Shown: piece by piece, positions 426 through 38,616 of the stretch
Numbering within the stretch: the stretch's first letter is position 1
How the letters are laid out: the number at the start of each line of letters is the position of its first letter
Origin: a virus
Virus record (IMG/VR): IMGVR_UViG_3300048822_000094
Coordinates: 1 to 41,322 of that record
Strand: one strand, 5' to 3'
DNA length: 41,322 nucleotides
Program-made: the position numbers and the translations under genes
Notes under the pieces: model-generated
Told to the model about the DNA's origin: nothing
What the model saw: the letters and a program-made list of their open reading frames with translations, nothing else
Database searches by the model: none

Positions 426-502
426 CTTGGCCGCAGCCTGCCCGATATATTTTCCTTGCACACACCGCACTCGTGGTTTACACTGGCCGCAATGAGGTAA
501 AC

Positions 503-796: not shown

Positions 797-800
797 TTTT

Positions 801-1328: not shown

Positions 1329-1331
1329 TGT

Positions 1332-11574: not shown

Positions 11575-11596
11575 ACGCTAATTACGGGGAATTACT

Positions 11597-12094
11597 ATGA
11601 ATAACGAAAAAGCACAGGAAAACGCTGCGGCTGAGGCAACTGCATTGGTTAAGGCACCTTCTATTGGCTACGCCATAAATCTAGTGATGGATTATGGCAG
11701 CGGGCGGCAGGTTACTATTTCCGGTACGTTACCGCTCGGTGCAACGTTGAAGGACATGAACGAGGAGCTTGATAAGCTTCGCCTCGCTACAAACCGGCAA
11801 TCTTCCTTGGTGATATTGCGGGATATCGAAAACACGGTGGCACTTTCCAAAAAGACTATTGCTGCAATCGAATTGATGATCTCAACATACGAAGCAGAAA
11901 TGGAAAAGGAAATGGCTACGCTGAAGGAGGGGCCAAAGAGCGGTCATTCCATGGTGCAAACTCAGATAACCAATATGCGCGCGCAGGCCACAAATTACCG
12001 CGTAACGAAGAATGAAGAGCTCCAGCGCGCGAAGCTGGATATGGAGAAGGGCGAACTTGTTATCGCCCGCATCAAAAAAGAACTTGAGGACTAA
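11597..12094 (+). CDS. Coiled-coil protein of the head-tail region
   Basis: This 165-residue protein has an N-terminal 50-residue segment with beta character (GYAINLVMDYGSGRQVTISG). A long charged helical region from about residue 52 to the end follows, with heptad spacing of Leu, Ile and Met and many Lys/Glu pairs. No catalytic residues or membrane segment are seen. GGGGA precedes the start, and the stop directly abuts the next gene's ATG. It is likely a structural or assembly factor for the connector; the exact role is unknown. Confidence 0.55.
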   Translation: MNNEKAQENAAAEATALVKAPSIGYAINLVMDYGSGRQVTISGTLPLGATLKDMNEELDKLRLATNRQSSLVILRDIENTVALSKKTIAAIELMISTYEAEMEKEMATLKEGPKSGHSMVQTQITNMRAQATNYRVTKNEELQRAKLDMEKGELVIARIKKELED

Positions 12095-12784
12095 ATGCCC
12101 TATTCTGCATCACAGTTAGTCAGCCTTGCCGGACAAATCTGTGATGTGCCAGGGCGCGTTTCGCAAATCGGCCAGTTTCTTAATATGATTCTGGCCGATT
12201 ATGCGCAGACAATGGATGAAGATGTGGTGCGGCAGACCACTACGCTTAATATAGGGCCGCAGGCCGTCATCCCTTACGCTAACCCTCTTCCTTCAAACTA
12301 CTTGCGCGCGTACGACGTGTTCTACCTTGTCCAGGGGGAGCCGTTTTATGTCACACAGATGGAACTTGATGAATTTGACAAGTTGTTTACCGGGCAAGGC
12401 ATAGATAATTACCCTGAGCGTTTTGCCACGGATATGTCGCAAAGTCCTCCCGCGATGTATTTTTACCCCCCGCCTGCTATACCTCTTGCGGTAACAATTC
12501 GGTATCGCCCACAGACTTCGGATATAACGACTCCGGAAACGAGCGCTACGATTCCGTGGTTCCCTAACCAGAGGGCACTGTTAAAAGATCTCTGCGTGGA
12601 TACGATGATGTTGAGTGATAACCCGCAGCGCGGTGCATTGCTGGAGAAAGAGGTTGAACGGCGCATGAATAAGTATCTCATCATGAGCGACGATAAAGAA
12701 GGATATTCGCAGCAGGTCAAACTTGACCCCAATACTTTTCGGCTTCGTGGTAACCTTCCGCCATCTAAGAAACTCGGGTTTTAG
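12095..12784 (+). CDS. Head-tail connector (tail tubular A / P22 gp4-like adaptor)
   Basis: The 229-residue product has the size and helical N-terminus of the adaptor that stacks below the portal in podoviruses. It also has the proline-rich segment with PSNYLRAYDVFY, then FPERFATD-like and PPAMYFYPPP stretches. Its C-terminal half contains a helix with multiple Leu/Lys/Asp residues before a disordered tail. It comes immediately before the nozzle-like gene, the usual adaptor-then-nozzle order. I base the call on length, order and overall pattern, since no short diagnostic motif exists for this family. Confidence 0.7.
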   Translation: MPYSASQLVSLAGQICDVPGRVSQIGQFLNMILADYAQTMDEDVVRQTTTLNIGPQAVIPYANPLPSNYLRAYDVFYLVQGEPFYVTQMELDEFDKLFTGQGIDNYPERFATDMSQSPPAMYFYPPPAIPLAVTIRYRPQTSDITTPETSATIPWFPNQRALLKDLCVDTMMLSDNPQRGALLEKEVERRMNKYLIMSDDKEGYSQQVKLDPNTFRLRGNLPPSKKLGF

Positions 12785-12792
12785 GGGTATGT

Positions 12793-14403
12793 ATGCGCAC
12801 GCCGGAAGAACAACATATCCGCTTTGCGCCGCGCAGTGTGGCGGATACTGTTGACGGTGACGCATCGCCTCCAGGCGCTTGCTTGAGTCTTTCGAATTTA
12901 ATCTGGGACGATTCCACGCCAAACTGCCTTATATGCCGACCCGCCAATTCAAAAACGGTAAATTTTAGCACGTGGGGAGCGGCACCCGGCACTGTGGGCG
13001 TTATCACGGCTGAATTTGCAATCGACAACATAATTTACGGGATGGTAGGTATTACATCTGGGTCCTATGCAGGCCTTGACTACCCTTTCGCGTATAATAC
13101 AAACACCGGCGCTTTTATCGCGATTTCCGGTATCACAGTAGCCAAATGCCCTACCTCGCAAGCAACGACGGGAGCGTGGACGCCGCCCCAGTTTACCTTG
13201 ACGGGTATTGAACTTGTGCTGACACATATCGGGTATGACGGCGTAACACATTTCTTCGGATCGTTTAATCTTACGACACCCACCGCGCCGGTCTATACGG
13301 CGGGAAATACCAGTACGAACGGCCTTCCTTCAGCCCCCGTGGCCTGCAGTACGTTTAATAACAGAACATATTTTGCATGCGGTAATACCGCCTATTACAC
13401 TGATACGCTGGCGCTTAATATGTTCAATTCTAACCAGTCGTTGAGTTTTGGCGATTTGACGCCGATCACCGCGATGGCGCCGTTACCTATGGGCAGTACT
13501 TCACAGGCAATTATACAGGCGGTGTTACTTTTTAAGCTTACCCAAGTTGCGCAGGTAACAGGTGACCCTATCACGACTAACTTAGCGATGAACTTGCTAA
13601 GTCCGACCGTTGGGACGGCGGCCCCCCGTTCCGTCGTCCCAACACCTTACGGCGTGCGGTTTATGGCGATTGATGGTATCAGGGATATTAGTTTTTATGG
13701 TTTTGTGTCCGAGCCGGAGCCCAATATATGCATACCGTTCAAATACGCAGTCACACCGTCACGCGTCGCGGCAGCTTACAATTCGGAAATATATCGTATA
13801 TGCGTGCAAAACGGCGCGATGCCGGGTAGCCCGTTTCAAGACTGGTGGTACAGTTTTAAACGCGGCGGCTGGACAGGGCCGCATACTTTCCAGTATGACG
13901 TAGCGGCAGCTTTTAACGGTGATTTTGTTATCGCGTCTAACACCCTTCCCGGCGCGATTTGGGATTCTTACACAGATCAGGGGCACCAAGGCGGCGGGAC
14001 GTCTTTCGTCGAAAATGGTACGCAGCTTGCGTTTGTGTATGAAACTTCGAATATGACAGATCTAAATAATATCTACGCAAACAAAGTCCAAAAATCTACG
14101 ATAGAGATCGCGTTGCCTGCAAGCGGTGAAACTTACAATTGTACGGCTCAAGACGAAGATGGGACAGTGCTTGCTCAGGGGAGTATTACCGGAGGCACCA
14201 ATCAAGCAATTTGGGGGCAGTTCACGTGGGGCAGGGCAAACTGGGGGGCTTCAACTTCGGGCTTGAAACCTTTCACGATTCCGTGGAACCAGGCGGTCAT
14301 TTTTAATAAGCTCAGTGTCATCGTTCAGGGGCAGTCGTCGCTGAGTATGAAAATAGGCTGTTTACATAACGCATACAAACAATTAAACTACCTTCTAAAT
14401 TAA
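12793..14403 (+). CDS. Tail nozzle protein, beta-propeller type
   Basis: This 536-residue protein is rich in beta-strands with repeated aromatic and Gly residues (for example NNRTYFACGN, GVRFMAIDGIRDISFYG and FQDWWYSFKRGGW). These recur at propeller-blade spacing, as in the P22 gp10 and T7 gp12 nozzle families. It follows the connector gene and precedes the fibre gene. AGGGG lies just before the ATG at 12793. The protein would form the tube tip below the adaptor through which DNA is ejected and to which fibres attach. Several cysteines are near the N-terminus. The role is inferred from fold pattern and order. Confidence 0.7.
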   Translation: MRTPEEQHIRFAPRSVADTVDGDASPPGACLSLSNLIWDDSTPNCLICRPANSKTVNFSTWGAAPGTVGVITAEFAIDNIIYGMVGITSGSYAGLDYPFAYNTNTGAFIAISGITVAKCPTSQATTGAWTPPQFTLTGIELVLTHIGYDGVTHFFGSFNLTTPTAPVYTAGNTSTNGLPSAPVACSTFNNRTYFACGNTAYYTDTLALNMFNSNQSLSFGDLTPITAMAPLPMGSTSQAIIQAVLLFKLTQVAQVTGDPITTNLAMNLLSPTVGTAAPRSVVPTPYGVRFMAIDGIRDISFYGFVSEPEPNICIPFKYAVTPSRVAAAYNSEIYRICVQNGAMPGSPFQDWWYSFKRGGWTGPHTFQYDVAAAFNGDFVIASNTLPGAIWDSYTDQGHQGGGTSFVENGTQLAFVYETSNMTDLNNIYANKVQKSTIEIALPASGETYNCTAQDEDGTVLAQGSITGGTNQAIWGQFTWGRANWGASTSGLKPFTIPWNQAVIFNKLSVIVQGQSSLSMKIGCLHNAYKQLNYLLN

Positions 14404-14414
14404 GGGGCGGCGGC

Positions 14415-15668
14415 ATGAAAAAACTTTTAGCTTTCCTCATAGCTCTATTGCTGGCGCAGCCCGCTTTTGCGACTTGTATCCCTTCCATTCCGTACAATTT
14501 GACGAACGGTTCTCTTGCGGATGCAACACAGGTAATGGGTAATTTTAACACTATCGTTACCGACGTAAATGCGAATTGCGCAACGGCGGGCGTGAATTCT
14601 AATATTACGTCGCTCACGGGCTTGACCACGCCGCTAGCCCCCACGTTTGGGGGGGCCGCGTATTTTTTTGGCAGTACTTCTACGGGCACGGCAAACGCAC
14701 AAGTTTTAGCAACGATGGTCCCGAGTACGTTCTCGCTGACTGACGGGTACATGTTCACAATGACAGCGGGGTATACAAACAACGGGGCGTTGACAATAAA
14801 CCCCAACGGCCTCGGTGTGACGAATGTGAACAAGCCCGGCGCAGGTGCGCTTGCTTCCACGACTGGCGGAGAGTTACAGGCGGGCAATAAGTATTTGTTT
14901 ACGGTGGTAGGGTCGCAGCTTGAGGTAATGAATCCAAATTTTAGTACTGACGGCATAAATTTTACGTTTAACAGTGCAGGCAATCTTGCTTTTGGCAGTG
15001 CGCCTGTCCTTCCTGGCACGACGTTGGCATCGTCGCAGGTGCAAACGGATAATACCGCAGCGCCTGCGACGGATAAATTTGTTAATAGCGTAGCGCGCGG
15101 AGAACAGGTATTTACTACGACGGGGACATTCACGACACCTGCATCTGCGGTAGCTGGAACTCAGTATGAGTTTATTGTTACTGGCGGCGGTGGCGCGGGG
15201 GGTGGAGGCACGCAAGGTGGCGGTGGCGGTGCAGGCGCTACGTGCGTATACTATGTCAGTGCGTTGGCTTCAGGCCAGTCTGAGACGATTACCGTCGGCG
15301 GCGGCGGCGCGGGTAGTTCGACTACAGGAGCGAGCGGTACAAATTCAAGCATACTTGTCAACTCCGTTACAGTTACGGCTCCTGGCGGTAACGGTGCGGT
15401 AGGAGGCGGGGCAACTACAAATCTTGGCGCGGCTCAGTCTTCTGCGTGCACCAATGCGACGCTTAGTCTAACCGGCGGCGGCGGCATGAACGGTTCCGGG
15501 TCTTATACCGCTGGCCTAGGTGGGGCATCGTATTGGGGCGGCGGTGCGAATCCGCTGACGGGAACCACGGGCAATACCGCGACGGCGTATGGTGCGGGAG
15601 GGTCAGGTGCGAATAACGGTAACGGCGGCGCGGGTGCCGCGGGTGTAGCAGTTGTCAAGTGGTGGTGA
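14415..15668 (+). CDS. Glycine-rich tail fibre with signal peptide
   Basis: This 417-residue protein begins with a clear Sec signal peptide: MKK, a Leu/Ala core, and QPAFA before the probable cut near residue 20. Residues 20-230 are a Thr/Ser/Asn-rich fibre shaft. From about residue 250 to the end there are many glycine runs (GGGGAGGGGT, then GGGGAGSS, and GGGANP near 375), ending in GVAVVKWW. This matches glycine-rich tip domains of receptor-binding proteins such as the polyglycine adhesins of T4-like phages. The gene follows the nozzle gene. An exported signal on a tail fibre is unusual, since phage tails assemble in the cytoplasm. Confidence 0.8.
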   Translation: MKKLLAFLIALLLAQPAFATCIPSIPYNLTNGSLADATQVMGNFNTIVTDVNANCATAGVNSNITSLTGLTTPLAPTFGGAAYFFGSTSTGTANAQVLATMVPSTFSLTDGYMFTMTAGYTNNGALTINPNGLGVTNVNKPGAGALASTTGGELQAGNKYLFTVVGSQLEVMNPNFSTDGINFTFNSAGNLAFGSAPVLPGTTLASSQVQTDNTAAPATDKFVNSVARGEQVFTTTGTFTTPASAVAGTQYEFIVTGGGGAGGGGTQGGGGGAGATCVYYVSALASGQSETITVGGGGAGSSTTGASGTNSSILVNSVTVTAPGGNGAVGGGATTNLGAAQSSACTNATLSLTGGGGMNGSGSYTAGLGGASYWGGGANPLTGTTGNTATAYGAGGSGANNGNGGAGAAGVAVVKWW

Positions 15669-15669
15669 T

Positions 15670-15948
15670 ATGGAGAAGCGTCGTAAAGAAGATAGTGATA
15701 TAGCCCAACAGTGGTGGCACTGGATCCGTCCCTACTGGCATGTGGCGAGTTTTCTTATGCTAATGACCTTCATTGCAGCTACAAAATGGTCTACCGTGGA
15801 AGCCTACGGCGAAATGTTAAATGATCATACTAAACGCATATCAGCACTTGAGGTATGGCAGGCTGGCGCATCAAATAACCTTGCGGCGATGAAACAGGAA
15901 GTAGACGATATCCACGAATCTGTGGTGGGGAAAAATGAGCGACCGTAA
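15670..15948 (+). CDS. Single-span membrane protein, putative holin-type lysis protein
   Basis: The start is placed at 15670 (MEKRRK), one base after the fibre stop; a longer in-frame reading from 15652 would overlap it. The 92-residue protein has a basic N-terminus, one membrane segment (about residues 21-40, ending near AATKW), then a charged helical stretch that could form a coiled coil. The next gene encodes a cell-wall peptidase, and the two overlap by 14 bases. A holin or a membrane anchor that helps release the peptidase is the natural inference, although no family match is claimed. Confidence 0.6.
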   Translation: MEKRRKEDSDIAQQWWHWIRPYWHVASFLMLMTFIAATKWSTVEAYGEMLNDHTKRISALEVWQAGASNNLAAMKQEVDDIHESVVGKNERP

Positions 15949-16366
15949 TTTATCCGATCTTGATCCAAAGCTTCAACCGCTTTGCCAGCAGTTTCTTGCC
16001 AACTGTAAAACAGCCGGGCTACGCGCTATCATCACTCAAACATGGAGGTCTTATGCTAATCAGGATGCAGACTATGCTTGCGGACGCACGGCACCCGGTA
16101 ATATCATCACCAACGCTCGTGGCGGCCTGTCCCCCCATAATTGCACAGACGATGGAACGGCTACCGGAACTCCGGCCAGCAAAGCCTTCGATTTCGCCCT
16201 TTATGACGATGGGGATAACGCTCTAGATTGGGATGCCTCTGATCCTGACTGGCAGAAAGCCATTGCCATAGGAGAAGCTTTAGGTTTAATATCCGGAAGC
16301 ACGTGGCATAGTCTAAAGGACTCGCCACATTTCGAGCTTCCAAACTGGAACCAACCAACCGTTTAA
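15935..16366 (+). CDS. M15-family peptidase endolysin
   Basis: The 143-residue protein has the layout of a VanY/M15-type L-alanyl-D-glutamate peptidase such as T5 endolysin, which cleaves the peptide stems of peptidoglycan. The zinc site is built from H68 (GGLSPHN), D86 (SKAFDFALY) and H132 (SPHFEL). The SxHxxGxAxD signature has an insertion of about ten residues between the histidine and the aspartate. The N-terminus shows no signal peptide, so export through a holin is expected. It overlaps the upstream membrane gene by 14 bases and is followed by more lysis-type membrane proteins. Confidence 0.87.
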   Translation: MSDRNLSDLDPKLQPLCQQFLANCKTAGLRAIITQTWRSYANQDADYACGRTAPGNIITNARGGLSPHNCTDDGTATGTPASKAFDFALYDDGDNALDWDASDPDWQKAIAIGEALGLISGSTWHSLKDSPHFELPNWNQPTV

Positions 16367-16376
16367 GGAGAAATTT

Positions 16377-16739
16377 ATGAGTTTTTTCGCAACTATAGAA
16401 GCCGACATTGAGGCAATTGAAGCTAAATTTGCAGGCAACCCAATTGGCATTGCCCTGAAGGCTGACTATGAAGCTGCCCTCGCAGAACTTGAGACGGTTG
16501 GCGTCGCTGACCTTGAAGGGGCTGTTAAAACCGTTGGCGTGGCCGTTTTAGGCGGTTTAGCCTCTGGCGGCACTGCTGGTGCTATCGCTGCTGGTATTGC
16601 CGCTGCGCCTGCCGCATTTGAAGCTGCTGGTAAAGCTATATCAGCATCCACAATCACCACGTTGGTTTCCAATATCACAAATCAGGTTTCCGCTATCCCT
16701 GCCGTTTCTGCTTCCAGCGGTTCTGGGGCAGCAGCTTAA
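16377..16739 (+). CDS. Ala/Gly-rich membrane-active protein, possible holin
   Basis: This 120-residue protein starts after AAGGAG and has two helical parts: an acidic amphipathic N-terminus (about 1-40) and an Ala/Gly/Val-rich hydrophobic region (about 50-85, with GGLASGG and AIAAGIAAAPAAF). The tail is Ser/Ala-rich. Its position right after the endolysin and its hydrophobic middle suggest membrane insertion, so it could be the holin or a second lysis protein. Alternatively, it may be a small virion protein. Its stop overlaps the start of the next small frame by one base (TAATG). Confidence 0.5.
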   Translation: MSFFATIEADIEAIEAKFAGNPIGIALKADYEAALAELETVGVADLEGAVKTVGVAVLGGLASGGTAGAIAAGIAAAPAAFEAAGKAISASTITTLVSNITNQVSAIPAVSASSGSGAAA

Positions 16740-16804
16740 TGATACTCATATTGGCAGGGGGCTTGGCTATTATAGCCGTCTGCCATATATTTCCAGTGGG
16801 GTGA
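16739..16804 (+). CDS. Possible 21-residue hydrophobic peptide
   Basis: A TAATG overlap with the previous gene opens a 21-codon frame that encodes an almost purely hydrophobic peptide (MILILAGGLAIIAVCHIF and a short end). It stops just before the ribosome site of the next gene at 16807. Its size and composition fit a single membrane span, and it may be a small lysis effector or only a coupling leader. Evidence is limited to the coupling and hydrophobicity. Confidence 0.3.
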   Translation: MILILAGGLAIIAVCHIFPVG

Positions 16805-16806
16805 AT

Positions 16807-16986
16807 ATGCCAGGATGGCTCGTTTCTTTGGTTGTATGGGCGATTGAATACTTCCTTCAGAAAGAGGTCATTCAGAATCACCCTGTTATTAAGAAAATAC
16901 TGAACCCGGTGCCCTTGAATCCCGATCCTAACCCGCCCCTTTCGCAGCGCGACAACCCTAACGAGGCGAACCATTACGGAGGCTAA
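16807..16986 (+). CDS. Small N-terminally anchored membrane protein of the lysis group
   Basis: The start is at 16807, with GGGGTG five bases before the ATG. The 59-residue product has one hydrophobic segment (residues 3-20, with WLVSLVVWAIEYF), followed by a charged, Pro/Asn-rich cytoplasmic or periplasmic tail. Its size and proline-rich tail recall small spanin-type subunits, but there is no lipobox cysteine. It is therefore a membrane-anchored lysis accessory at best. It ends directly before the acetyltransferase start. Confidence 0.5.
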   Translation: MPGWLVSLVVWAIEYFLQKEVIQNHPVIKKILNPVPLNPDPNPPLSQRDNPNEANHYGG

Positions 16987-17430
16987 ATGGCTATCACTTT
17001 CCAGAAAGAACTTTTCGGGCTTATAGCCCCCGAACTCCCGGATTTATGGCTGCGTCACTGGGAAGAAATAGACCAGGAAAACAGGTTAGATCCGGATTGG
17101 CAGAAATATCTCGTGATGGAAGCTACGGGGTTGCTCCATGTCATAACGGCACGAAACACTAAAAAATTAATCGGGTACTACATGGCGGTTGTCACCCCGC
17201 AACTGCACGACAAGACTTGCCTTATGGCATTTTCCGATACGTTGTACATATTGCCGGAGTACCGGGTAGGGTGGACGGGGTATAAGCTTATCCGTGAGGC
17301 CGGTAAGATGCTGAAAGTGCTTGGCGTGAAAAAATCTTACCTCGTGACAAAAAAGAATTTCCCCCTTATAATGCTCTTGAAACGTCTCGGTTATATTTTT
17401 ACCGAGAAAATATACGTTAAGGTTCTGTGA
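16987..17430 (+). CDS. GNAT-family N-acetyltransferase
   Basis: The 147-residue protein has the GNAT fold pattern. An N-terminal helix and strand are followed by a strand with KKLIGYYMAVV, a central strand (LMAFSDTLYILPEYRVG), the acetyl-CoA-binding turn and helix (YRVGWTGYKLIREAGKML), and C-terminal strands ending in FTEKIYVKVL. Such proteins recur in the tail and lysis region of podovirus genomes, and their substrate is mostly unknown. Modification of a virion or host protein is a guess. The start directly follows the previous stop. Confidence 0.75.
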   Translation: MAITFQKELFGLIAPELPDLWLRHWEEIDQENRLDPDWQKYLVMEATGLLHVITARNTKKLIGYYMAVVTPQLHDKTCLMAFSDTLYILPEYRVGWTGYKLIREAGKMLKVLGVKKSYLVTKKNFPLIMLLKRLGYIFTEKIYVKVL

Positions 17431-17436
17431 GGGTAC

Positions 17437-18444
17437 ATGAGCAGCGTGGTGAGCGGTATCGGCGGACTGGTTGGCGGTTTGCTCGGTGGCAATAGCGCAC
17501 CTTCCGCGCCTAACGTAAACGTATACCAACCAGGCGGCACTTCTACAGCGGATAGCCAGCTTCAGGCTTTGCTGACACAAGGGTATAACACAGTCAACGG
17601 GTCATCAAACCCGTACACGCAGTATTCCCCGCAATTTGCTAATTTATATAACCAGATTTATGGCAGTCCGTACCAGGCAGGTGCGCAGACATCCGCCAAC
17701 ACCGGCGGTGCGAGCTACGGGACGGTGGGTACTGCGGGGGTGGGTAATTCAAGTGCAATAAGTGGCGCGGTAAATCCGCTGCTTTCGGGAGCGAGCACGG
17801 TACTCAATCAAGGCCTTGACCCCCAAACGGCACTCTATAATCAGACATTGCAAAATACAAATGACGCTGCGAACGTGGCTAATGCGCAGTACGGCCTCAC
17901 CGGTCAGCAGGCGGCGGGCAACGTAAACCAAGCGGATACGAATTTTAATATAGACTGGCAAAACCAGCAACTTTCACGTGCTCTAAGTGCCTTAAGCGGT
18001 GCAGGGACAGCAGTGGGGGCGGCGGGTACAGCGGGTACAGCAGCACAGAATGTCGGGTCAGCGGGCGCGGGCGCGCAGGTGCAGGCCGGTTCTATTCCAT
18101 ACCAGCAACAGGTATCAGGCGTTAGTAATCAGTCAACAGCATTGCAGCAGTATATTGCTTCGTTGCTTGGCCCGCAGACAAGTACGCAGACGACAATCGG
18201 CGATCTGTCGTCCTACCTTGGGCAAGGTATTGGGGCATCCACGGCAGGCCAGAATGCAGCATTGCAGGCGTACCAGGCGCAGTTACAAGGTGCAACAAGT
18301 GGTGCTATCGGCGGCGCGGGGTTAGGTTCGCTTTTAGGTAACGGTTTTAGTTCCGCTGGCGGATTTAACTTCTTGAATCCTTCTACCTCGGCTCTTTTTT
18401 CTTCTGGCAGTGCTGCCGGTTCTGCGGCGGCGGTGGCGGTATAG
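17437..18444 (+). CDS. Low-complexity putative internal (ejection) virion protein
   Basis: The 335-residue protein is rich in Gly, Ala, Ser, Gln and Asn, with a short hydrophobic Gly-rich N-terminus (IGGLVGGLLGG) and repeated ALYNQTLQN-like and YQQQ helical segments. GAGGG precedes the start. The composition and the position before two more low-complexity genes and a very large protein fit the ejection proteins of podoviruses, which leave the head with the DNA and help it cross the cell envelope. No specific motif was found, so the identity is inferred from context. Confidence 0.55.
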   Translation: MSSVVSGIGGLVGGLLGGNSAPSAPNVNVYQPGGTSTADSQLQALLTQGYNTVNGSSNPYTQYSPQFANLYNQIYGSPYQAGAQTSANTGGASYGTVGTAGVGNSSAISGAVNPLLSGASTVLNQGLDPQTALYNQTLQNTNDAANVANAQYGLTGQQAAGNVNQADTNFNIDWQNQQLSRALSALSGAGTAVGAAGTAGTAAQNVGSAGAGAQVQAGSIPYQQQVSGVSNQSTALQQYIASLLGPQTSTQTTIGDLSSYLGQGIGASTAGQNAALQAYQAQLQGATSGAIGGAGLGSLLGNGFSSAGGFNFLNPSTSALFSSGSAAGSAAAVAV

Positions 18445-22400: not shown

Positions 22401-22841
22401 AATCCCCTTATCCAGCAGGCTACGGGGCAGGATAATGCCGAATTTGGAAATTTTGGTTACACCGTATTGCCTGACCTTGCGCAAAAAACAATGGAAGGTA
22501 AGCGTACTGTGGGGCAGGATATCCAAAGCCTTGCGTCTCCAGGGTACGTCATGCAAGGTATGGACCTTGCGCGCGGCGTGAATTCGTACTTGGGTAAGCC
22601 TATATCCATTCCCGGTGAAACGCCTGGTGAGGTAGGCTGGGATTACGGTAGCGAGATAGCAAATAAATTTAGCCCAATGCAGCGTATGGGGCAGATCACG
22701 CGGGGGCAGATCACGCCGGAAGATTTATGGTTGCAGCAACTCGGTGTTAAATTTCCTGCGGATATGCCAAAGTCTGTTCGACGCCAACTCAAGACGCGCG
22801 AGAAATATGGTAGTCCACTTGAACAGGAGTTAGGCCAGTGA
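19446..22841 (+). CDS. Large putative injected protein with ADP-ribosyltransferase-like domain
   Basis: The 1131-residue protein is probably carried in the head and ejected. Residues 1-220 are linker-like, with two copies of KIDFKPAQ (35-42 and 47-54). A proline linker with PPA repeats (about 220-235) leads to a domain at 240-430 resembling the ART of polyvalent proteins: H243 (RHSSS), a GYDGIIV strand near 347-353 and a VVSFYPD strand at 416-422. The residue before that last strand is Gln415, where a Glu is often expected. Residues 540-1131 are a long helical region, with a GYM-x-KGMSQAQA-x-x-AAKTFMNY stretch like the LPD38-type part of polyvalent proteins. It could modify a host target on entry. 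Confidence 0.6.
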   Translation: MVDFTPSPQAGARKAVLDVFDPPKDAPIAFTPTRKIDFKPAQSAAPKIDFKPAQKTERLIDKLPGLDPRALYSTFEKGTEAAIKGGANLVSGMAAPFMKKESLDTLQKKGLYTPGESPVKEFSQAAYNPIMAPLVPVLEKGTQVASAAATKAGVSDKTQGRVGDVVGTAMDILGVAGVPELRGAKAPVVEIPRGEPKIASVAKANNQLVQPETDPDQPTAPPAPPAPPAPPAPPKRQTLQVRHSSSNPDLKKFLPTDKVEMGARYDAGVGGAFGPETYFDETGQWQGSVALTGLGGRGHSYKATVDFNNPLVITPETGNIAKVLGLLSEKGKLLTGREIAKAAKAAGYDGIIVRGLDTEEVYSKPLTDLTRKWEKGELTDKQYEKKRAALDKLMDAFERENVSKLGMTAEGFQNQVVSFYPDKSAKILGKVEKEQRPISTYQSKIFSPDQPIASTKDVATTQGLADKLYQHRGASRADYKEFAQWAKSFKGVPEQFWVKALDHLDDPKKYPLTPEEQLVFDRSIKPMQDEINANRAEIKKAGLDPAKFEEEEEEESGSLGGAIRQRKGMGTPLDKMTGTKGQAPEGGKSISKQAGTFKGRNMMALVKDGARQVVHIDGDGSIFDASKRGDPIGRVNPETGQPVNGGKIVDATRREIEAATKGQVQYHDNAFGVYGTTLLQTRRAVRSARMLEEIKKSPDFNQVAHSPFSKSEVPENWREIPNAPAFRGWRFEPRYAEEIEDFLGSQRRDMGALTKLEQLNKFSLNTLFWLNPIHAYNITDAFLVTKGLGGLAKDLPGTIGDLLKSIKSVATRDKYNMAQARAGVPMPGLDTAGEEFRRMTLEAMGVKARQDPQSFFQFAKRFGYDNPKDFLSRVAEVSHKAVFSWQDVLQQTLERGYMRKGMSQAQATEEAAKTFMNYRTPARVGDQRWIGQALQGQAWLDFPKYSYGRLKGLYEILKGSAKLDPHSIDQLITIAALYEFGQYALNPLIQQATGQDNAEFGNFGYTVLPDLAQKTMEGKRTVGQDIQSLASPGYVMQGMDLARGVNSYLGKPISIPGETPGEVGWDYGSEIANKFSPMQRMGQITRGQITPEDLWLQQLGVKFPADMPKSVRRQLKTREKYGSPLEQELGQ
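20102..20146 (+). repeat. 9-base tandem repeat encoding a proline linker
   Basis: Four perfect copies of the 9-mer CGCACCCCC and one altered copy lie in a row. They encode PPA units that join the N-terminal segment to the ADP-ribosyltransferase-like domain. Copy number can change by slippage. Confidence 0.85.
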
Positions 22842-24148
22842 AAATCCTTGTAATAGACCAGCAAGCTGCCTCCCTCGACTGGACCATGCGCTGCATCGCG
22901 GATGGTCACCAGGTGAAATGGTGTGTACGGCCAGATGAAAAAGTTAAAAATGTTGGTAAAGGCATTGTTGAACGCATCGACGCGCCGTCCGATTATCTCC
23001 GATGGCCAGATTTAGTATTCTTCGCCGATAACACCTACTATATGCAGTACGCGGACGCTTTTCGTGAGCGCGGCTGCGCGGTTATCGCCGGTAATGTGGA
23101 GTCTGTTGAGTGGGAGCTTGACAGGGACGTAGGTATGAAGGTTCTTAAACGGGCTGGCATTGCCTGCCCCCCAACGAAGGAGTTTAACGATTATGACAAG
23201 GCGATTAGTTTTGTTCGGTCTACTATGCTTAGGTATGTGTCTAAGCCTAGCGACAGTCCTGATAAAGCCCTCTCATACTGTGCCAAGTCACCCGCAGACA
23301 TGGTCTATATGCTGGAGCGATGGAAAAAATTCAACAAACTTAAAACTCCCTTCATACTGCAAGAGTTCATCCCCGGCATCGAAATGGCGGTCGGTGGGTG
23401 GTTCGGCCCCGGTGGTTTCAATCGTGGATGGTGCGAAAACTGGGAATTCAAAAAATTAATGAATGACGATCTGGGCGTAGCTACGGGCGAACAGGGTACG
23501 GTGGTGCGGTACGTGCGGTCGTCACTACTCGCCAACAAAGTATTAAAACCTGTAGAAGACCAGCTTGCGAGCCTCGGGTATGTAGGGTATATTGATGTCA
23601 ACTGCATTATTGATGATGAAGGTACGCCACAACCGCTGGAATTTACAATGCGTCCTGGCTGGCCGACATTCAACATCCAGCAGTCATTGCACAAAGGGGA
23701 TCACGCAGAATGGTTGATAAATCTGGCAGAGGGCACGGACGCGCGCAACTGGGAAATGGACAAGGTAGCAGTGGGGGTCGTTCTATCGATCCCAGACTAC
23801 CCATACAGCCACTTAACACGCAAGGAAGTCAACGGGGTGCCGGTGTACGCGGACATAGTGAAACACCGGGAGTTCTTGCACCCGTGCGAGGTGCGAATGG
23901 GCGAAGCTCCGCACGAGGAAGCTGGGAAGATTGTGTCAAAACCGTGCTGGGTAACGGCGGGGGATTACGTGCTGGTAGCAAGCGGGACAGGCCAGACAGT
24001 CAGCGAAGCGAAGAAAGCGTCGTACAGCCTTCTGAAAGAGATCTCCTTACCCAACTCGCCGATGTACCGGACAGATATATCGAACCGGTTGAAGAAGCAG
24101 TTACCGAAGTTGCAGTCGATGGGTTACGCGACCGGGATGACCTTTTAG
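22838..24148 (+). CDS. ATP-grasp ligase, PurD-like
   Basis: The 436-residue protein begins at GTG 22838, overlapping the previous stop (GTGA), with GGAG upstream. The N-terminus is a Rossmann-like preATP-grasp domain (MKILVIDQQ). The central ATP-grasp part holds D-V-G-M-K-V-L-K-R-A-G-I near residue 97-108, a lysine strand (RYVSKPSDSP), a hinge-like LQEFIPGIEMAVGG, and a metal-site strand, VNCIIDDEG then LEFTMRPGWPTF. This matches phosphoribosylamine-glycine ligase-like enzymes, which join an amine to an amino acid via acyl phosphate. The true substrate is unknown; a role in purine metabolism, DNA base modification or virion chemistry are all possible. Confidence 0.8.
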   Translation: MKILVIDQQAASLDWTMRCIADGHQVKWCVRPDEKVKNVGKGIVERIDAPSDYLRWPDLVFFADNTYYMQYADAFRERGCAVIAGNVESVEWELDRDVGMKVLKRAGIACPPTKEFNDYDKAISFVRSTMLRYVSKPSDSPDKALSYCAKSPADMVYMLERWKKFNKLKTPFILQEFIPGIEMAVGGWFGPGGFNRGWCENWEFKKLMNDDLGVATGEQGTVVRYVRSSLLANKVLKPVEDQLASLGYVGYIDVNCIIDDEGTPQPLEFTMRPGWPTFNIQQSLHKGDHAEWLINLAEGTDARNWEMDKVAVGVVLSIPDYPYSHLTRKEVNGVPVYADIVKHREFLHPCEVRMGEAPHEEAGKIVSKPCWVTAGDYVLVASGTGQTVSEAKKASYSLLKEISLPNSPMYRTDISNRLKKQLPKLQSMGYATGMTF

Positions 24149-24432
24149 CCGAAGGCAACCACGAAAAACTTAACCGCCAGCTTTTACCTTTGGCGCTCGA
24201 CGTCCTCATGGAAACGATGCGCCTGGATCCCAATGATTTTGATCCTAGCGAGCGTCCGCGTATCCACTCTATCAAAAAAGATGCTGCGGTAAGCACCGGG
24301 ACAATGAGTTTAAAAGCCGACGAGAATGTTTTCCGCCGACGTAATTTTAACGTGGTAGACGATTTGTTTGCTAAGATGTGGGCGGAAAAGAACGGCGCGC
24401 CGTATGTAGAGAATACGGCTCAAGCTGGTTAA
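23944..24432 (+). CDS. Candidate terminase small subunit (start uncertain)
   Basis: The C-terminal 110 residues look like a real helical protein, with LNRQLLPLALDVLMETM, a SIKKDAAVSTGTMSLKADEN helix-turn pattern and RRRNFNVVDDLFAKMW. This is reminiscent of small terminase subunits that bind the packaging site. No ATG fits: the only one upstream in frame (23710) gives a Gly/Arg-rich shadow sequence. The start shown is a GTG; GTG 23884 and ATG 24208 are alternatives. It overlaps the ATP-grasp gene by about 200 bases and the antisense O-antigen-ligase gene by 62. Small terminase function is inference. Confidence 0.45.
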   Translation: MLGNGGGLRAGSKRDRPDSQRSEESVVQPSERDLLTQLADVPDRYIEPVEEAVTEVAVDGLRDRDDLLAEGNHEKLNRQLLPLALDVLMETMRLDPNDFDPSERPRIHSIKKDAAVSTGTMSLKADENVFRRRNFNVVDDLFAKMWAEKNGAPYVENTAQAG

Positions 24433-25516
24433 GCCGGTGATAGGCGAGTGCCAGTCCTACCAGTATACTTATAGGCGGTACGTAGAGTTGAAATTCCACC
24501 ATCGCCTGCGCAAAAACAGTAAACAAAACCACTGCAGATAAGATGTTGCTTTTTCGTGTCGCGCGCACCACAACCAGGATAAGGGCTAGAAAAACAAACG
24601 CGAGTGGAAATCCAAGCTCGATAGCTAGTTGCAACAGATCGTTATGCGCAAATCCTCCACCGGTAACATGCTCGATCCGCACTGCGCTGTAATAAAACCC
24701 GAACGAACCTAGCCCTAATCCTGTGAAGGGGTTGCGCAAAGCTAACGGCCATGCAGCTTCCCATATCGGGAAACGCTCTACAAGAGCCGAAGAAAGTGAA
24801 GTCAGTACCGAATCCGGCCAGAAAGGGAAAGACACAATAACTAAGACGCCCGCCACGGTGACCACTTCCATTGCGGACAGGAGCCTGTTAAATCGCTCAA
24901 TAAGGAGAACCGTGCACGCGGCTACCGCGAGCATGCAGCCTGCTTTGCTTGCAGTCAGGAAGAGTGCAAAACTGAATAGCGCCACGAACCCCCACCATAA
25001 ACGCTTGCGCAGCGCCCGGTAGAAGCAAGGGATTAACCCACAGTTCAATACGCAGGCTGCGTTGTTTGGGTCTATGAGAGGCCACGCGTACGCCATGCGA
25101 GGCAGAAAAGAATGCTCGCGCCCTGGCAATGGATATTCGAAGATAGTGTAGTGCACGTGGAAAACAAGCTGCAGAATCAGCCCGGCGGCATAGACTACCA
25201 AGACCGTTAATGCGGCTATTAGACATTTGTTCAATGTCTCTTTGTCGATTGCCAGTCCCAGCATGGGTGCGGCTAATAAAATCCACATTGTCGCAGCGCC
25301 GTTGCCCACAGGCCTTAAAAAGAAAGTCGCTACAAATAGGGCAATTATCCACCCAAGATATGCTTTCCACAACCCGTCTTTGTGCATGGGAGGTTCGTAC
25401 ATAGCTGCGCACGAAAACAAAAAGAAAACCAGCCACGCTCCTGCGAGCGGGCTGGTCATTGACTGCACGAAAAGAGAAACCAGCAGGGCTAGAAAGAGTA
25501 ACCCCGCCGGAATCAT
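24371..25516 (-). CDS. O-antigen ligase/polymerase-like membrane protein (WaaL/Wzy_C family)
   Basis: Read leftward, this 381-residue protein has about ten or more membrane spans. The long periplasmic loop of the WaaL/Wzy_C family is present: R248-F-P-I-W252, then NPFTGLGLGSF (262-272) and the AHNDLLQLAIELG motif with H291. TASKAG at 188-193 matches the family's T-x-S-R/K-G-G site. Family members join O-antigen units to lipid A-core or polymerise them at the inner membrane. The start at 25516 is one base after the preceding stop (TAA-C-ATG), so it is coupled to the secreted-protein gene. A role in altering host surface polysaccharide, hence superinfection exclusion, is inferred. Confidence 0.82.
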   Translation of the reverse strand: MIPAGLLFLALLVSLFVQSMTSPLAGAWLVFFLFSCAAMYEPPMHKDGLWKAYLGWIIALFVATFFLRPVGNGAATMWILLAAPMLGLAIDKETLNKCLIAALTVLVVYAAGLILQLVFHVHYTIFEYPLPGREHSFLPRMAYAWPLIDPNNAACVLNCGLIPCFYRALRKRLWWGFVALFSFALFLTASKAGCMLAVAACTVLLIERFNRLLSAMEVVTVAGVLVIVSFPFWPDSVLTSLSSALVERFPIWEAAWPLALRNPFTGLGLGSFGFYYSAVRIEHVTGGGFAHNDLLQLAIELGFPLAFVFLALILVVVRATRKSNILSAVVLFTVFAQAMVEFQLYVPPISILVGLALAYHRLNQLEPYSLHTARRSFPPTS

Positions 25517-25517
25517 G

Positions 25518-26201
25518 TTACTGCACCGTGTACAGTAAGTTGACCATGAAGCTGGTCGTGGTAGCCACGCTCGTGCCAACATTCGAGATAAGTACGCTAT
25601 CGCCTGAAGCGCAACCCTGCCCAAAAGCGGTGGAAGTCAGGTTGCCGCCGGTGGCGATGGTCGTAGACGAATAGGGGTAAAACGCTGATAGGGAAATACC
25701 GCTGTTTAGATACGCGATAGGTACCGACATCAGGATGTTACCGCTCGTACACACGATCATAATGCGGGTAGCCGCAGAAGGAGACCCGCCGAGAGGTAAA
25801 AGAGAAACATTTTCAGGATAAATTGTACGCCCTGAAAGGCCGGAAATAAGTGGGAAACCGCCAGTAGCATTTACGCTTGCGACAACAACGTTCTGCACGG
25901 TTGCCTGGACTAGGGGGTTTGCCTGGACACCGGTACTGAAAGTCGTCGAACTTACATCCGTACCGTTACCAGGTATGGAAGCAGCGCCCGGGTATTTGGT
26001 TGAAATACCCACGGTCTGCGTGGATATGATCGACAGCATCTGATTAAATGCGTCTGTCAGGTTAAACGGTGATTGCGTGATATAGGTAAGTGGAAAAGCA
26101 GAACCGCCAAGCTGGTCGATAACGCCTATAGCAGCAGCGGGAATAAGAAGCGCGCACGCGAGGGCGAGCAGCTTCTTACGGAAGGTGTTTAGAAAGCGCA
26201 T
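25518..26201 (-). CDS. Secreted tail-like beta-rich protein
   Basis: The start at 26201 follows GGAGG by a few bases (the reading from 26213 would include that site). The 227-residue protein starts MRFLNTFRKK, then a hydrophobic segment (residues 11-26, LLALACALLIPAAAIG) typical of a signal peptide or anchor. The rest is Ser/Thr/Gly/Val-rich beta structure with two cysteines about 50 residues apart, which fits an exported fold. Its C-terminal half resembles the small beta-sandwich virion protein at 503-796 in general style. It is coupled to the O-antigen-ligase-like gene. It may be a virion protein, a periplasmic partner or a surface factor. Confidence 0.6.
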   Translation of the reverse strand: MRFLNTFRKKLLALACALLIPAAAIGVIDQLGGSAFPLTYITQSPFNLTDAFNQMLSIISTQTVGISTKYPGAASIPGNGTDVSSTTFSTGVQANPLVQATVQNVVVASVNATGGFPLISGLSGRTIYPENVSLLPLGGSPSAATRIMIVCTSGNILMSVPIAYLNSGISLSAFYPYSSTTIATGGNLTSTAFGQGCASGDSVLISNVGTSVATTTSFMVNLLYTVQ

Positions 26202-26256
26202 AATTTCCTCCATGCGGTAAAAGTCTGATTACCCCGTATTCCCAAATATATCACAA

Positions 26257-26565
26257 CTACGCTTTCCGTAAAGCTAAAAGATTGTATCGTGCTGCATGTG
26301 TCCTTGCTTCAAGGCAAAGAGAAAATAATTCTGCTTCTTCGGCGGATTCTAGGTACATTATGCAACGGTGATTGTGGTAAAGGCACACACCTGCAAAATC
26401 CCACCCTCGGCATAATTTTAGTGGTGGTAAAAGGCTGGTTTTCTTTTTGTTTTTACCTTTATTCAGTGCATTAGCTATATCCGCCGCGCGTTTTTCAGTT
26501 GAATAATAAGCTATAAGCTTACCTTCAAAGTATATGCGGTTTTTTTTGTTTGTAAATTGGGTCAT
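26257..26565 (-). CDS. Small unknown protein after the primase-helicase
   Basis: The start is at 26565, forming an ATGA overlap with the primase stop; a longer reading would lie inside the primase gene. The 102-residue basic protein has an N-terminal strand pattern (NRIYFEGKLIAYYSTEKRAADIA) that resembles a small beta-hairpin domain with a following helix. Three cysteines and CLYHNHRCIMYL lie in the middle, and a C-terminal helix is Ala/Leu-rich. No family is recognised. Because of the coupling it is likely co-expressed with the replication proteins. Confidence 0.55.
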   Translation of the reverse strand: MTQFTNKKNRIYFEGKLIAYYSTEKRAADIANALNKGKNKKKTSLLPPLKLCRGWDFAGVCLYHNHRCIMYLESAEEAELFSLCLEARTHAARYNLLALRKA

Positions 26566-29303
26566 TTGCGCAACGCTAAAACTGAAGCATGTTCCACTTC
26601 CTTCTCCGTTGCCTGCAATCCCCCGCTTAAAGCTGGATTTGCCATATCTATTTCGCAGCAATATATACGTGACGAGGCGAATTTAGTCCCGGCGCCTAGG
26701 GTCACATATTTTTTTCTTTCCTTTAAGCATCTTAGCTCTGTAAGCCTGTCCAGGAATTCTTCAAACATGATGCCGCGTTTAGTGCACCACTCCTGCAACG
26801 CTTCCCGACTTACGTACATCGTGGAGGTATCGCGCTCCATGCGGATTATTAACTTATGCGTAGGTTCAAGCTCGACCAAAACCGGCCCGCTCGTGCGTTT
26901 GAAAGCATGCGGGACAACCAGAGTTGACCGCAAATTATCAGACAGGAACGTATTAAGCTGGGATCCGCCATCCCCGGCGGTTGACTCAACCATACGCGTA
27001 CTGGCTTGCTTTACCGCCCAGTCCATAAGACGTTTAACGTCGAAGTGCATTATCCCCCACTGGGTCAAAATAAGCGCAGCGACTTCTACCGTGGACAGCA
27101 GCCATACAAGAAAGCGATGCTCCGCCTGCGTTTGAAGCGTGGCTCTATATTTCATAATTGTCGTGCCGGGCTGTTCTTCAGTCCCTCCCAGCATCGTGGC
27201 TAAAAATTCGACTATTTTGGTTACGGTAATTATCTGGGCAAACCGTCGTCCTGCATGCCCCCTATGCCGCATCATTTCGCGCGTGAGTCCGCTAAAATTT
27301 TCGAACGTTTTATTATCCGGTCGGGGCACGCGGATTTCAAAAATACGCCGTGATGCCGGGTCGTCTATAGGTCTTATGAGATCTACAAGTGAGTGATTGG
27401 ATACGGATATTAGGATTGTCTGGAAGCGGTCTACCATCACCTGCGCGCCTTTCATATTTAGCCGTCCGCGGTCGCAGCCCACTGTAAATTTCTTTATGCA
27501 CGCTGCGGCGATATTGGGATCGCGTTGGTGCATTTCTTCTGTGACGCGTGGCAAGTTGCACCCGCGCACTAAATCTTCAATCAAACGGTTTTCAGTAAAG
27601 TTGCCCGTGTCCACGACGGATTTCAAGTCACCCCATACGGACGCAATAGCCTCGGTAGTAGGCGATTTGCCTGTACCGGACTTTTCACTTACAAGCGACA
27701 GTATTGAACCGCCGTCCCCCATACCGGCGCAGAAGGGCATTAATGTCGAAGCAAAGCTGCATACGACGGCAAACAGATGGGCTTCCATACCTATCTGCCC
27801 GAGTTTATCCGCGCGCTGCGTCCACTCTTCCAACGAGCCTCCAACGGGGAGTGCCATAGGCGCGATGTAAGGTTGCAGCTTATCTGTCCCGAAAGCTTTT
27901 TGCGGAACACCGTTTTTTATAAGCACGTCGCCCACCAGGAATGCGCTAAAATTATCTTTCCAGCCAAACTGGTTGTAGCGTATGATTTCTTCACCGTTTT
28001 CTCTAAGCATGACTTCCACCTTCCGTGTGTAGGTTTTAAAATATTTATCCATGCCGGGTTCCAAACTGGCACCCCCGCGCTTGAATAGCTCTGCATACCA
28101 GTTTTGGCCGTTCATTTCTGCGGCACTTAAAAGTAGCTCCATCCATCCTTTTTGCGGGTGGTATTTCTTGAACATGTACGAATTATTCTGGGCGTCGCCC
28201 TCGTCATTCATAATGGCACCGGGGAAAATAGGAAACCTGGATACGAGACGCCAGAAAATTTCTTCGTCTTCCTCGATACGTACTTCCAGTTGCTGCTGGC
28301 CATTCCAACGGAAACCGGGCACTTGCGGCAGTAATTGCTGTTGTTCGACAGGCAGTATTGGCGGGTGACTGGTTAAGTGAGTCTGGTAGCAGCCCGCTAC
28401 TGTTTTACGTACCTTATCTTCCGGTAGCGGCGGCAGGTTGCAGTTATTCCATGCGATACACGTATCTATGGCTTGCCGGAGATCCATACGTCCCGCGGGG
28501 CTAAAACACCAGCCTGCCCGCCGCTTGAGTTCCTCCGTCCTCTGCCCGTCAGGGTAGCCTTGCGTCATACTGATAGACGAGCCTTTACTCAGGCCGCCTA
28601 GAAGGGCGTCGTTTACAGACGGATTACTTATGCCCTGCGGCGCAATTCCTAACGGTTTCCGTATATCCTCTTTGCTAGGTTGCCCGGATAGTAGGGATAC
28701 GTGTGCCTCCAGTACCTGCGTAATAAAGCCCAGCGTATCGTTTTCCCCAAACTCACCTTCTTCTATCTCGACCCGTCTCGCCTCAGGAAGTTTGCGATTA
28801 AATGTTTCTGGGGGTCGAAGAATGGAGGCAATGTCGGCGGTGCGGGACCCATCCGCGTGCAACCCTTGCGACTCTGTAAGCGCTTTAAGTTGCTTAGAAA
28901 CAGCGCACCAGGTAGCGCTGTCGATAGCGCGGTCAAGAATCCAGTAGGCATGCAGGCCAGAACCCGACTTAACCAACCCTGGGTATACAAGACCTGCCCG
29001 GTCGCAGAATCCATCGAGAGAAATGATTGCTTGTTCGACTGTTGCATAAGGTTTACCCTCTCCTACATCTATATCCAGCCAGAAAGACTTCGCCCAGCCC
29101 GCGTTTACTTGCCGTCGGTTCTGAACTGTTTTAAACGACGCGCAGGCGAAATACGCCGTTTGCCCGCGCGCATCAATGTCACGTATCGTAGCTGCCAATT
29201 CATCGAAGGATTCTGTAAAGTAGTGTTTTTTATTTGGAAACTCTACCGCACACTTAAACCCCTCATGCGGAAGAACCAGCTTTAGAAACTCTCCCAAGCG
29301 CAT
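26562..29303 (-). CDS. Primase-helicase, AEP primase fused to DUF927-type ATPase
   Basis: The 913-residue protein is a probable two-part replication initiator. Residues about 1-175 form an archaeo-eukaryotic primase-like domain with the metal acids D77 and D79 (FWLDIDVG), the SGSGLHAYW motif at 113-121 and DIASILRPPETFN at 157-169. Residues about 255-310 look like a PriCT helical linker (RKTVAGCYQTH). From about 345 on there is a DUF927-type helicase with Walker A EKSGTGKSP at 540-548, in a region typical of SF3-like ATPases. It would synthesise primers and unwind DNA at the phage origin. It overlaps the HTH gene by 41 bases. Confidence 0.82.
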   Translation of the reverse strand: MRLGEFLKLVLPHEGFKCAVEFPNKKHYFTESFDELAATIRDIDARGQTAYFACASFKTVQNRRQVNAGWAKSFWLDIDVGEGKPYATVEQAIISLDGFCDRAGLVYPGLVKSGSGLHAYWILDRAIDSATWCAVSKQLKALTESQGLHADGSRTADIASILRPPETFNRKLPEARRVEIEEGEFGENDTLGFITQVLEAHVSLLSGQPSKEDIRKPLGIAPQGISNPSVNDALLGGLSKGSSISMTQGYPDGQRTEELKRRAGWCFSPAGRMDLRQAIDTCIAWNNCNLPPLPEDKVRKTVAGCYQTHLTSHPPILPVEQQQLLPQVPGFRWNGQQQLEVRIEEDEEIFWRLVSRFPIFPGAIMNDEGDAQNNSYMFKKYHPQKGWMELLLSAAEMNGQNWYAELFKRGGASLEPGMDKYFKTYTRKVEVMLRENGEEIIRYNQFGWKDNFSAFLVGDVLIKNGVPQKAFGTDKLQPYIAPMALPVGGSLEEWTQRADKLGQIGMEAHLFAVVCSFASTLMPFCAGMGDGGSILSLVSEKSGTGKSPTTEAIASVWGDLKSVVDTGNFTENRLIEDLVRGCNLPRVTEEMHQRDPNIAAACIKKFTVGCDRGRLNMKGAQVMVDRFQTILISVSNHSLVDLIRPIDDPASRRIFEIRVPRPDNKTFENFSGLTREMMRHRGHAGRRFAQIITVTKIVEFLATMLGGTEEQPGTTIMKYRATLQTQAEHRFLVWLLSTVEVAALILTQWGIMHFDVKRLMDWAVKQASTRMVESTAGDGGSQLNTFLSDNLRSTLVVPHAFKRTSGPVLVELEPTHKLIIRMERDTSTMYVSREALQEWCTKRGIMFEEFLDRLTELRCLKERKKYVTLGAGTKFASSRIYCCEIDMANPALSGGLQATEKEVEHASVLALRK

Positions 29304-37791: not shown

Positions 37792-38616
37792 TTAAGCTGG
37801 TTCTGTAAGATCAAGCCATTCCGTGCCTTGTGCTTTCATGGTGATAAGAATTTGCACCACTTCTTCAGCAAAGAATGATAATTCTTTATCTCTAGTAGCA
37901 GCATCAGCAGAATAAGCAACAGCATAAACAGCAGCATCAGCAGCAGCATCAGCAGCATCAGCAGCATAAGCAGCAGCATAAGCAGCAGCATCAGCAGAAT
38001 AAGCAACAGCATCAGCAGCATCAGCAGCATAAGCAGCAATACAAGCAACAGCATCAGCAATATGAGCAGCATTAGCAACATCAGCAGCAGCATCAGCAGC
38101 ATCAGCAGCAGCAGGATAAGCAGTATAACCATTTTCTTTTCTGACTGAATCTCTTGCTTTCCGGCAATTCTCAATGGTGGGTTCTTTTTCTATCGTCGCC
38201 GCCCATTCTTCCAGCAAGACTTTCATTATTTTACCAGAAACCCGTGCTGCCGTTCTAAATGCTCTTGGCACGATCTTCTGCGTAGTCATTTGCGCCAACG
38301 CTTTGATAAACTCCCTATCATCTATCTGCCCAGCGGTTCCTAGCTGTGCAATAGACAGTCTTCTCATGCCAGCGGCGCGGGCGGTATTAGATGACCAGTT
38401 TCTATCGTTAAGACTGATCTTCAATGAGCGCACTGCTTTGCCCACGCATGGGGGATTATCACCGTGCGGCAATCCCATTGCATAGTTTACAGCGGCTTCT
38501 ATGCACATTTCTCCTTCTTTGGGACTGCCCAAGCCCTTGCAAAGCCCTTTATCGACAACGGATAGGACTTTAATAGCAAGTTCACGGTTGATCTCTACAG
38601 TTTTGGCTTTCGTCAT
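37792..38616 (-). CDS. Alanine-repeat protein with degenerate short tandem repeats
   Basis: This 274-residue protein has a normal folded N-terminal part (about 1-165, with helices and several Trp/Arg residues). Residues about 167-245 are then dominated by A-A-D-A, A-Y-A and A-V-A units, with Asp, Tyr, Ser, Val and Ile at regular spacing. The last 30 residues are a mixed helix. The Ala-rich tract is encoded by long GCA/GCT-type triplet repeats. Such Ala-repeat tails are seen in some phage proteins and may form a regular helical or beta-solenoid surface. No enzymatic motif was found. Confidence 0.65.
   Translation of the reverse strand: MTKAKTVEINRELAIKVLSVVDKGLCKGLGSPKEGEMCIEAAVNYAMGLPHGDNPPCVGKAVRSLKISLNDRNWSSNTARAAGMRRLSIAQLGTAGQIDDREFIKALAQMTTQKIVPRAFRTAARVSGKIMKVLLEEWAATIEKEPTIENCRKARDSVRKENGYTAYPAAADAADAAADVANAAHIADAVACIAAYAADAADAVAYSADAAAYAAAYAADAADAAADAAVYAVAYSADAATRDKELSFFAEEVVQILITMKAQGTEWLDLTEPA
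37897..38117 (-). repeat. Degenerate GCA-type triplet tandem repeat
   Basis: About 220 bases consist of imperfect repeats of AGCAGCATC and AGCAGCATA units on the + strand, that is, alanine codons with spaced Asp, Tyr or Val codons on the coding strand. Unlike a CRISPR array, the repeat and spacer are not distinguishable. Length changes by slippage are likely. Confidence 0.85.

Follow-up and report, generated by a model that had tools for sequence, protein, structure and literature searches.

A coupled Wzy_C membrane protein and its exported partner in phages: a candidate protein O-glycosylation pair

Two adjoining phage genes encode a membrane protein of the O-antigen ligase superfamily with a predicted WaaL-type fold (P0001) and a partner with a predicted signal peptide (P0002), and the same coupled pair occurs in unrelated phages. 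We propose, with confidence that stands at about even, that they form a mobile protein O-glycosylation pair in which the exported partner is the predicted acceptor. That P0002 is O-glycosylated, where on the protein this would occur and what the phage would gain are inferences from these observations. The pair lies in an IMG/VR virus record that was analysed over its whole 41,322 bases (the window), which carries tail-fibre, endolysin, helicase, DNA polymerase and primase genes and in which no tRNA genes were found.

P0001 (24371-25516, minus strand) has 381 residues counted from its ATG; the longer TTG start chosen by the ORF caller would overlap the partner gene. The first-pass annotation had described it as O-antigen-ligase-like and had said that the lack of a Wzy_C HMM match would speak against this. 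P0001 matches Pfam Wzy_C (PF04932) at 58.1-61.8 bits against a curated cut-off of 31.7 (E = 1.1e-15 at 58.1 bits), and a crude scan finds nine hydrophobic segments. An AlphaFold2 model built with 35 viral homologues as input (pLDDT 83, pTM 0.84) has as its best PDB match in Foldseek the ligand-bound WaaL 7tpg (E = 6.4e-6, TMq 0.58), followed by FtsW/RodA, so that match and model together bear out the superfamily assignment. The chain stops soon after the long helices at the end of the model and has no counterpart of the C-terminal periplasmic/TPR domain. No match was found by phmmer against PDB sequences or by single-protein searches of cultured phages and viral contigs with either P0001 or P0002; PHROGs, NCBIfam and PADLOC gave nothing convincing for the two proteins, their weak sub-threshold matches being judged to be chance.

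The motifs RFPIW, GLGLGSF and AHNDLL are present in P0001 as originally read, and R, G.G...F and AHND are all kept in its three closest relatives. In the numbering of the conserved E. coli WaaL residues R215, R288 and H338 (PMC3643930), R288 corresponds to Arg248 (codon 24773-24775, minus strand), which is kept in nearly all viral Wzy_C rows, and H338 to His291 of the AHND motif (24644-24646, minus strand), while the R215 position is occupied by Lys191 (24944-24946, minus strand), which is K or Q in the P0001 family. Because AHND was part of the pattern used for the viral search, its invariance in the viral set, including that of His291, is there by construction and counts as no evidence; R248, W252 and the G motifs lay outside the pattern and were free to vary. 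Glu341 (24494-24496, minus strand), within QxMxEFQ, falls in the register of PglL H400-xxx-E404-x-P406. The glutamate is kept and is invariant in the four P0001-family members, but the histidine and proline are not, and PF15864 (PglL_A) had no match in P0001 at E<=1.

P0002 (25518-26201, minus strand) has 227 residues. Its predicted Sec-type signal peptide, seen on inspection and called by a rough predictor (positive for OmpA, negative for LacZ), has a basic n-region, a hydrophobic core and an AxA site after residue ~24, which supports the initial view of a secreted partner; a Ser/Thr/Gly-rich region and a C-terminal beta-rich domain follow. The N-terminal module of the mature protein (residues ~33-69; 25993-26104, minus strand) resembles a fibre-like protein found in the same genomic slot of phage L003, a weak match (phmmer E = 0.0018). 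The structural model is poor (pLDDT 49), with a C-terminal half that looks beta-rich, and Foldseek against viral models returned only low-TM matches to phage proteins, the model being too weak for interpretation. A search of 754 gamma- and alphaproteobacterial genomes with the P0002 family gave one marginal 47-residue match only. A Shine-Dalgarno-like GGAGG (26207-26211, minus strand) precedes P0002, and no strong one precedes P0001. The stop-start junction TAA-C-ATG (25514-25520, minus strand), confirmed in the sequence, leaves one base between the two genes and suggests that they are translationally coupled.

We collected viral Wzy_C relatives with a DNA pattern for AHNDx[LF]QxxxE[LF]G, which returned 39 viral stretches. 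P0001 and the enzymes of L130, L151 and L124 are the four mutually closest proteins, with 38-46% identity to P0001. In all the sequence fetched there are just two significant homologues of P0002, in L130 (1.9e-22) and L151 (3e-16), and both are signal-peptide ORFs immediately upstream of P0001-type genes, with junctions TAATG in L130 and GTGA in L151. A protein predicted to be exported adjoins the P0001-type enzyme in 3/3 pair loci, the exact pair being known from these three only. When viral contigs were scanned with either family, partner or enzyme, the L130 and L151 contigs were the only ones returned. The partner had been called new; it is not unique, since it recurs beside the enzyme's nearest relatives. 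L124 is a second Wzy_C in the L130 contig, partnerless and overlapping the end of the preceding gene, which from its position and sequence appears portal-like. The L151 contig (wider stretch L157) is 63 kb long and of HK97 type, with portal (PF04860) and capsid (PF05065) genes, and its pair lies between the capsid gene and the head-tail genes. Apart from the pair, no common protein was detectable between this contig and the window over the 12.4 kb compared; the L130 contig has two further small or fibre-type matches to the window. Because the L151/L157 phage is otherwise without detectable similarity, the pair seems to have stayed together while moving between unrelated phages. It behaves as a mobile cassette, and the same coupled order in the L130 and L151 contigs bears out the two-gene cassette of the first-pass annotation.

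In the window the two genes share the strand of the replication operon and lie at the end of it that converges on the late genes. They occupy what appears to be a variable cargo slot (24149-26561, no strand assigned) between a gene for a 436-residue ATP-grasp protein (22838-24148, plus strand), which adjoins the pair, and a DUF927 primase gene (minus strand). Viral contigs contain 131 relatives of the ATP-grasp protein, and we kept 80 loci; identity across these 80 is 54-72%, and the best match in the annotated phage collection is just 46%. The order ATP-grasp (plus) then primase (minus) is conserved in most loci with sufficient flank, while the content between them differs: the slot may be empty, may hold fibre-like proteins (L002-L005 and L054, the L003 protein having Gly_rich_2, BppL_N and beta-propeller matches) or may hold a tyrosine integrase (L035 and L041 by Pfam, L080 by resemblance). 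None of the 80 loci yielded a P0001 homologue. The whole records of 48 viral relatives contain one other Wzy_C gene, at a different genome position and with a signal-peptide protein nearby after it. Promoter and terminator scans gave no clear excess over shuffled sequence, and a Methylococcaceae/Acetobacteraceae host was not adopted, its basis being two MAG contigs only.

Several other genes of the window and its relatives are recorded here in their own right. A small ORF (26257-26661, minus strand) overlaps the end of the primase gene and has a weak PADLOC match to JAB (E = 0.0027), probably by chance, and a 274-residue protein (37792-38616, minus strand) contains a long Ala/Asp-rich repetitive stretch (AADAADAA). 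Apparent Sec signal peptides stand at the start of two tail-fibre-like proteins (14415-15668 and 1462-3537, both plus strand), which have PHROG tail matches and of which the first also matches Gly_rich_2; the second protein's homologue in L003 has no such peptide. By resemblance of three proteins, a fibre-type gene block occupies the L003 cargo slot (11778-18108, minus strand) and the left end of the window (419-3537, plus strand). The late region of the related phage G024 (L094-L096; e.g. 11341-12861, 25422-27083, 27322-28356) encodes many fibre- or spike-like proteins with signal peptides, and the Wzy_C gene of this phage is close to genes that look methyltransferase- and glycosyltransferase-like by eye and have no Pfam match.

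Simple sequence comparison cannot separate WaaL from PglL (PMC3643930), and the adjacency of enzyme and acceptor genes has been used as a hallmark of PglL O-oligosaccharyltransferases, 21/31 of which adjoin pilins (PMC3643930). The P0001-family profile was searched in 369 gammaproteobacterial genomes and the 12 best loci were taken, all encoding Wzy_C proteins of 640-740 residues. In 8 of these 12 an adjoining gene encodes a pilin with a GFTLIEL-type prepilin motif; among Wzy_C loci of that class taken without selection the figure is 2/30 (p = 1.5e-4). Three further loci (L165, L167 and L168) are beside minor-pilin-like genes by eye, and both counts are slightly low because these three and the unselected L194 escaped the motif scan. 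Pfam recognises pilin-type domains in two neighbours. The pilin-locus proteins score 50-82 bits with the family profile, E. coli WaaL 3.7 and the Wzy-beta of phage D3 0.6. A maximum-likelihood tree groups the P0001 family (support 100) with the pilin-locus proteins (SH-aLRT 94, at an open fork), a grouping that is partly expected because the 12 were chosen by similarity to P0001. By the published PglL locus logic these relatives would be pilin O-oligosaccharyltransferases, and there is indirect support for P0001 being kin to them rather than to D3 Wzy-beta. P0001 shares with the pilin-locus and PglL-PglS-TfpO enzymes a Wzy_C domain with the R and H and a gene that adjoins one for an exported protein; it shares with the pilin-locus proteins its best profile scores, its place in the tree and a [DN]PN..A..N motif, and with PglL a glutamate in the register of E404. 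P0001 differs from these enzymes in being phage-borne, in having 381 residues with no TPR or C-terminal domain, and in lacking PF15864, and its partner is a predicted Sec-signal, beta-rich protein, not a pilin.

The main and serious rival, to which we give appreciably less credence than to protein O-glycosylation, is that P0001 is an O-antigen or capsule ligase or polymerase. It would remodel the host surface glycan for superinfection exclusion or to lessen re-adsorption, as D3 Wzy-beta does, and P0002 would assist it in the periplasm or at the surface, or would be an exported protein with no connection to it. There are precedents for a phage Wzy in D3 (PMC4815439) and in an A. baumannii prophage (PMC9241936). 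In phage VarioGold the Wzy_C protein VG_p25 is beside and co-oriented with a 299-residue signal-peptide protein, VG_p26, which from the published description resembles our pair; its authors propose that it is expressed in lysogens and modifies LPS (PMC9658991). WaaL itself is the fold match of P0001, with the catalytic His and the Arg288 equivalent in common, and the PglL motif is kept only in part. On the other hand, P0001 differs from E. coli WaaL in its low score with the family profile, in having Lys for Arg215 and in lying outside an LPS locus. D3 Wzy-beta is, like P0001, a phage-encoded Wzy_C membrane protein of ~385 residues, but it has no detectable homology to the P0001 family, and the D3 unit consists of Iap, an acetylase (Oac) and Wzy-beta, the gene of which has no signal-peptide neighbour. 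Beside P0001 we recognised neither an Iap nor an O-acetylase gene, which flank wzy-beta in D3, nor any other LPS-modifying neighbour. D3 is temperate and has an integrase, whereas the earlier remark that none is seen in the window holds among its ORFs; neither an acetylase- nor an integrase-like gene was recognised among these, part of which were family-scanned, and Iap, at ~31 residues, could escape notice. Two members of the enzyme family are moreover within late structural operons, near the capsid gene in L157 and overlapping the portal-like gene in L124, a placement ill-suited to expression from a prophage. These points, together with the pilin-locus setting of the nearest bacterial relatives and the linkage of one partner family to the enzyme across unrelated phages, tell against D3-style serotype conversion, the precedent named in the first-pass annotation, as the leading reading.

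After removal of near-duplicates, the same-strand immediate neighbours of viral Wzy_C genes are signal-peptide ORFs in 27/60 cases, as against 30/239 for other genes of the same loci (p = 1.3e-7). We rejected this adjacency as proof of coupling: signal-peptide genes cluster anyway, their own neighbours being signal-peptide genes in 26/73 cases, not significantly below 27/60 (p = 0.29), so the statistic places Wzy_C in exported-gene clusters rather than making every pair work together. Stronger support for pairing comes from partner families that appear to be co-inherited with the enzyme (P0002/L130/L151; L129/L137/L148/L142/L132; L125/L149; L119/L156; L119/L122; L135/L154), some of the phages behind them being mutually related, with other genes in common. 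The Wzy_C proteins of other viral groups had no match in cultured phages. Twenty of the viral proteins form an all-viral clade (support 100), and many of its members have an ORF downstream of Wzy_C, mostly overlapping its end, whose part past the Wzy_C stop looks TPR-like (L129, L133, L142, L146, L148, L135, L138, L154, L123, L139 and L127). Enzyme gene and ORF together possibly correspond to the single Wzy_C-TPR protein of bacteria, split in two. Matches inside the overlapping stretch may be frame artefacts; in L142 the two genes hardly overlap. We rejected these ORFs as proven TPR proteins since their Pfam TPR scores are below the cut-offs. In L124 (9401-10498), L121, L126 and L139 the Wzy_C gene is just downstream of, or overlaps, a portal-like gene, with no recognised exported partner upstream.

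The same clustering of signal-peptide genes suits an unlikely reading in which the two genes merely share an accessory hot spot for exported and fibre-like genes, P0002 being a secreted fibre-like protein and P0001 an independent moron. The fibre-like proteins of the slot in relatives, the resemblance of the P0002 N-terminus to one of them and the two other signal-peptide fibre proteins of the window all agree with it. It does not account for the fact that every P0002 homologue found adjoins a P0001 homologue, with gene order and coupling preserved and with 33-47% identity, across unrelated phages. We consider it very improbable that P0002 is a virion protein, a decoration or fibre tip glycosylated by P0001 so that particles carry host glycan: its fibre-like N-terminal module, its beta-rich C-terminal half (in a low-confidence model) and the L157 cassette close behind the capsid gene would fit, but a signal peptide would remove it from the cytoplasm, where these virions assemble.

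Our preferred reading, protein O-glycosylation, thus draws on the WaaL fold and superfamily membership of P0001, on P0002 homologues that occur only directly upstream of P0001-type enzymes and coupled to them, on the joint travel of the pair, which is all that the window and the L157 phage detectably share over the 12.4 kb compared, on the pilin-adjacent bacterial relatives with their profile scores and tree support, on the gene adjacency that is a PglL hallmark (PMC3643930) and on the co-inherited signal-peptide partners of other viral Wzy_C lineages. Against it are the absence of PF15864 and of the C-terminal periplasmic/TPR domain that PglS and the pilin-locus proteins have, the clustering of signal-peptide genes, and the small base of three exact-pair loci and 12 similarity-picked relatives whose pilin role is presumed from locus context. 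In the proposed mechanism, P0002 would be made and exported by Sec through its predicted signal peptide, and coupling at the junction would have P0001 inserted into the inner membrane at the same time. With His291 and Arg248 as the putative catalytic residues, P0001 would then, by analogy with its superfamily, work on the periplasmic side, where it would remove a glycan of host origin from its undecaprenyl pyrophosphate carrier and transfer it to Ser/Thr of the co-exported P0002, probably in the flexible Ser/Thr-rich stretch. We speculate that glycosylated P0002 might function on the surface of the infected cell or beyond it, perhaps as a decoy or shield that hinders further adsorption, or might be a fibre-like component encountered by virions once the cell has lysed.

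The usual reading of a phage Wzy_C protein is that it alters the LPS or capsule of the host. We suggest, somewhat more tentatively than for the pair itself, that phages carry widespread, largely virus-specific modules for the O-glycosylation of proteins. Each would consist of an exported acceptor and a WaaL-fold oligosaccharyltransferase (those of the all-viral clade among them), and often of a small overlapping downstream gene that possibly supplies the TPR-like part of the one-chain bacterial pilin-locus enzymes. On this view phages would make glycosylated proteins for secretion out of the lipid-linked glycans of their hosts. A limited literature search with partial coverage, of titles and abstracts, turned up no description of a phage-encoded oligosaccharyltransferase, and the novelty of the idea rests on that search. 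VarioGold, a cultured phage with a Wzy_C gene beside a signal-peptide gene, suits tests of both glycosylation of the partner and O-antigen remodelling, and the two-gene system is open to direct testing. If the pair does glycosylate its own partner, phages would have captured the en bloc protein O-glycosylation chemistry that serves pili. Many uncultivated phages would become candidates, given 39 loci from one strict motif pattern; they may hold new oligosaccharyltransferases with new acceptor rules, and would allow a fresh look at why exported fibre-like proteins are encoded by phages.
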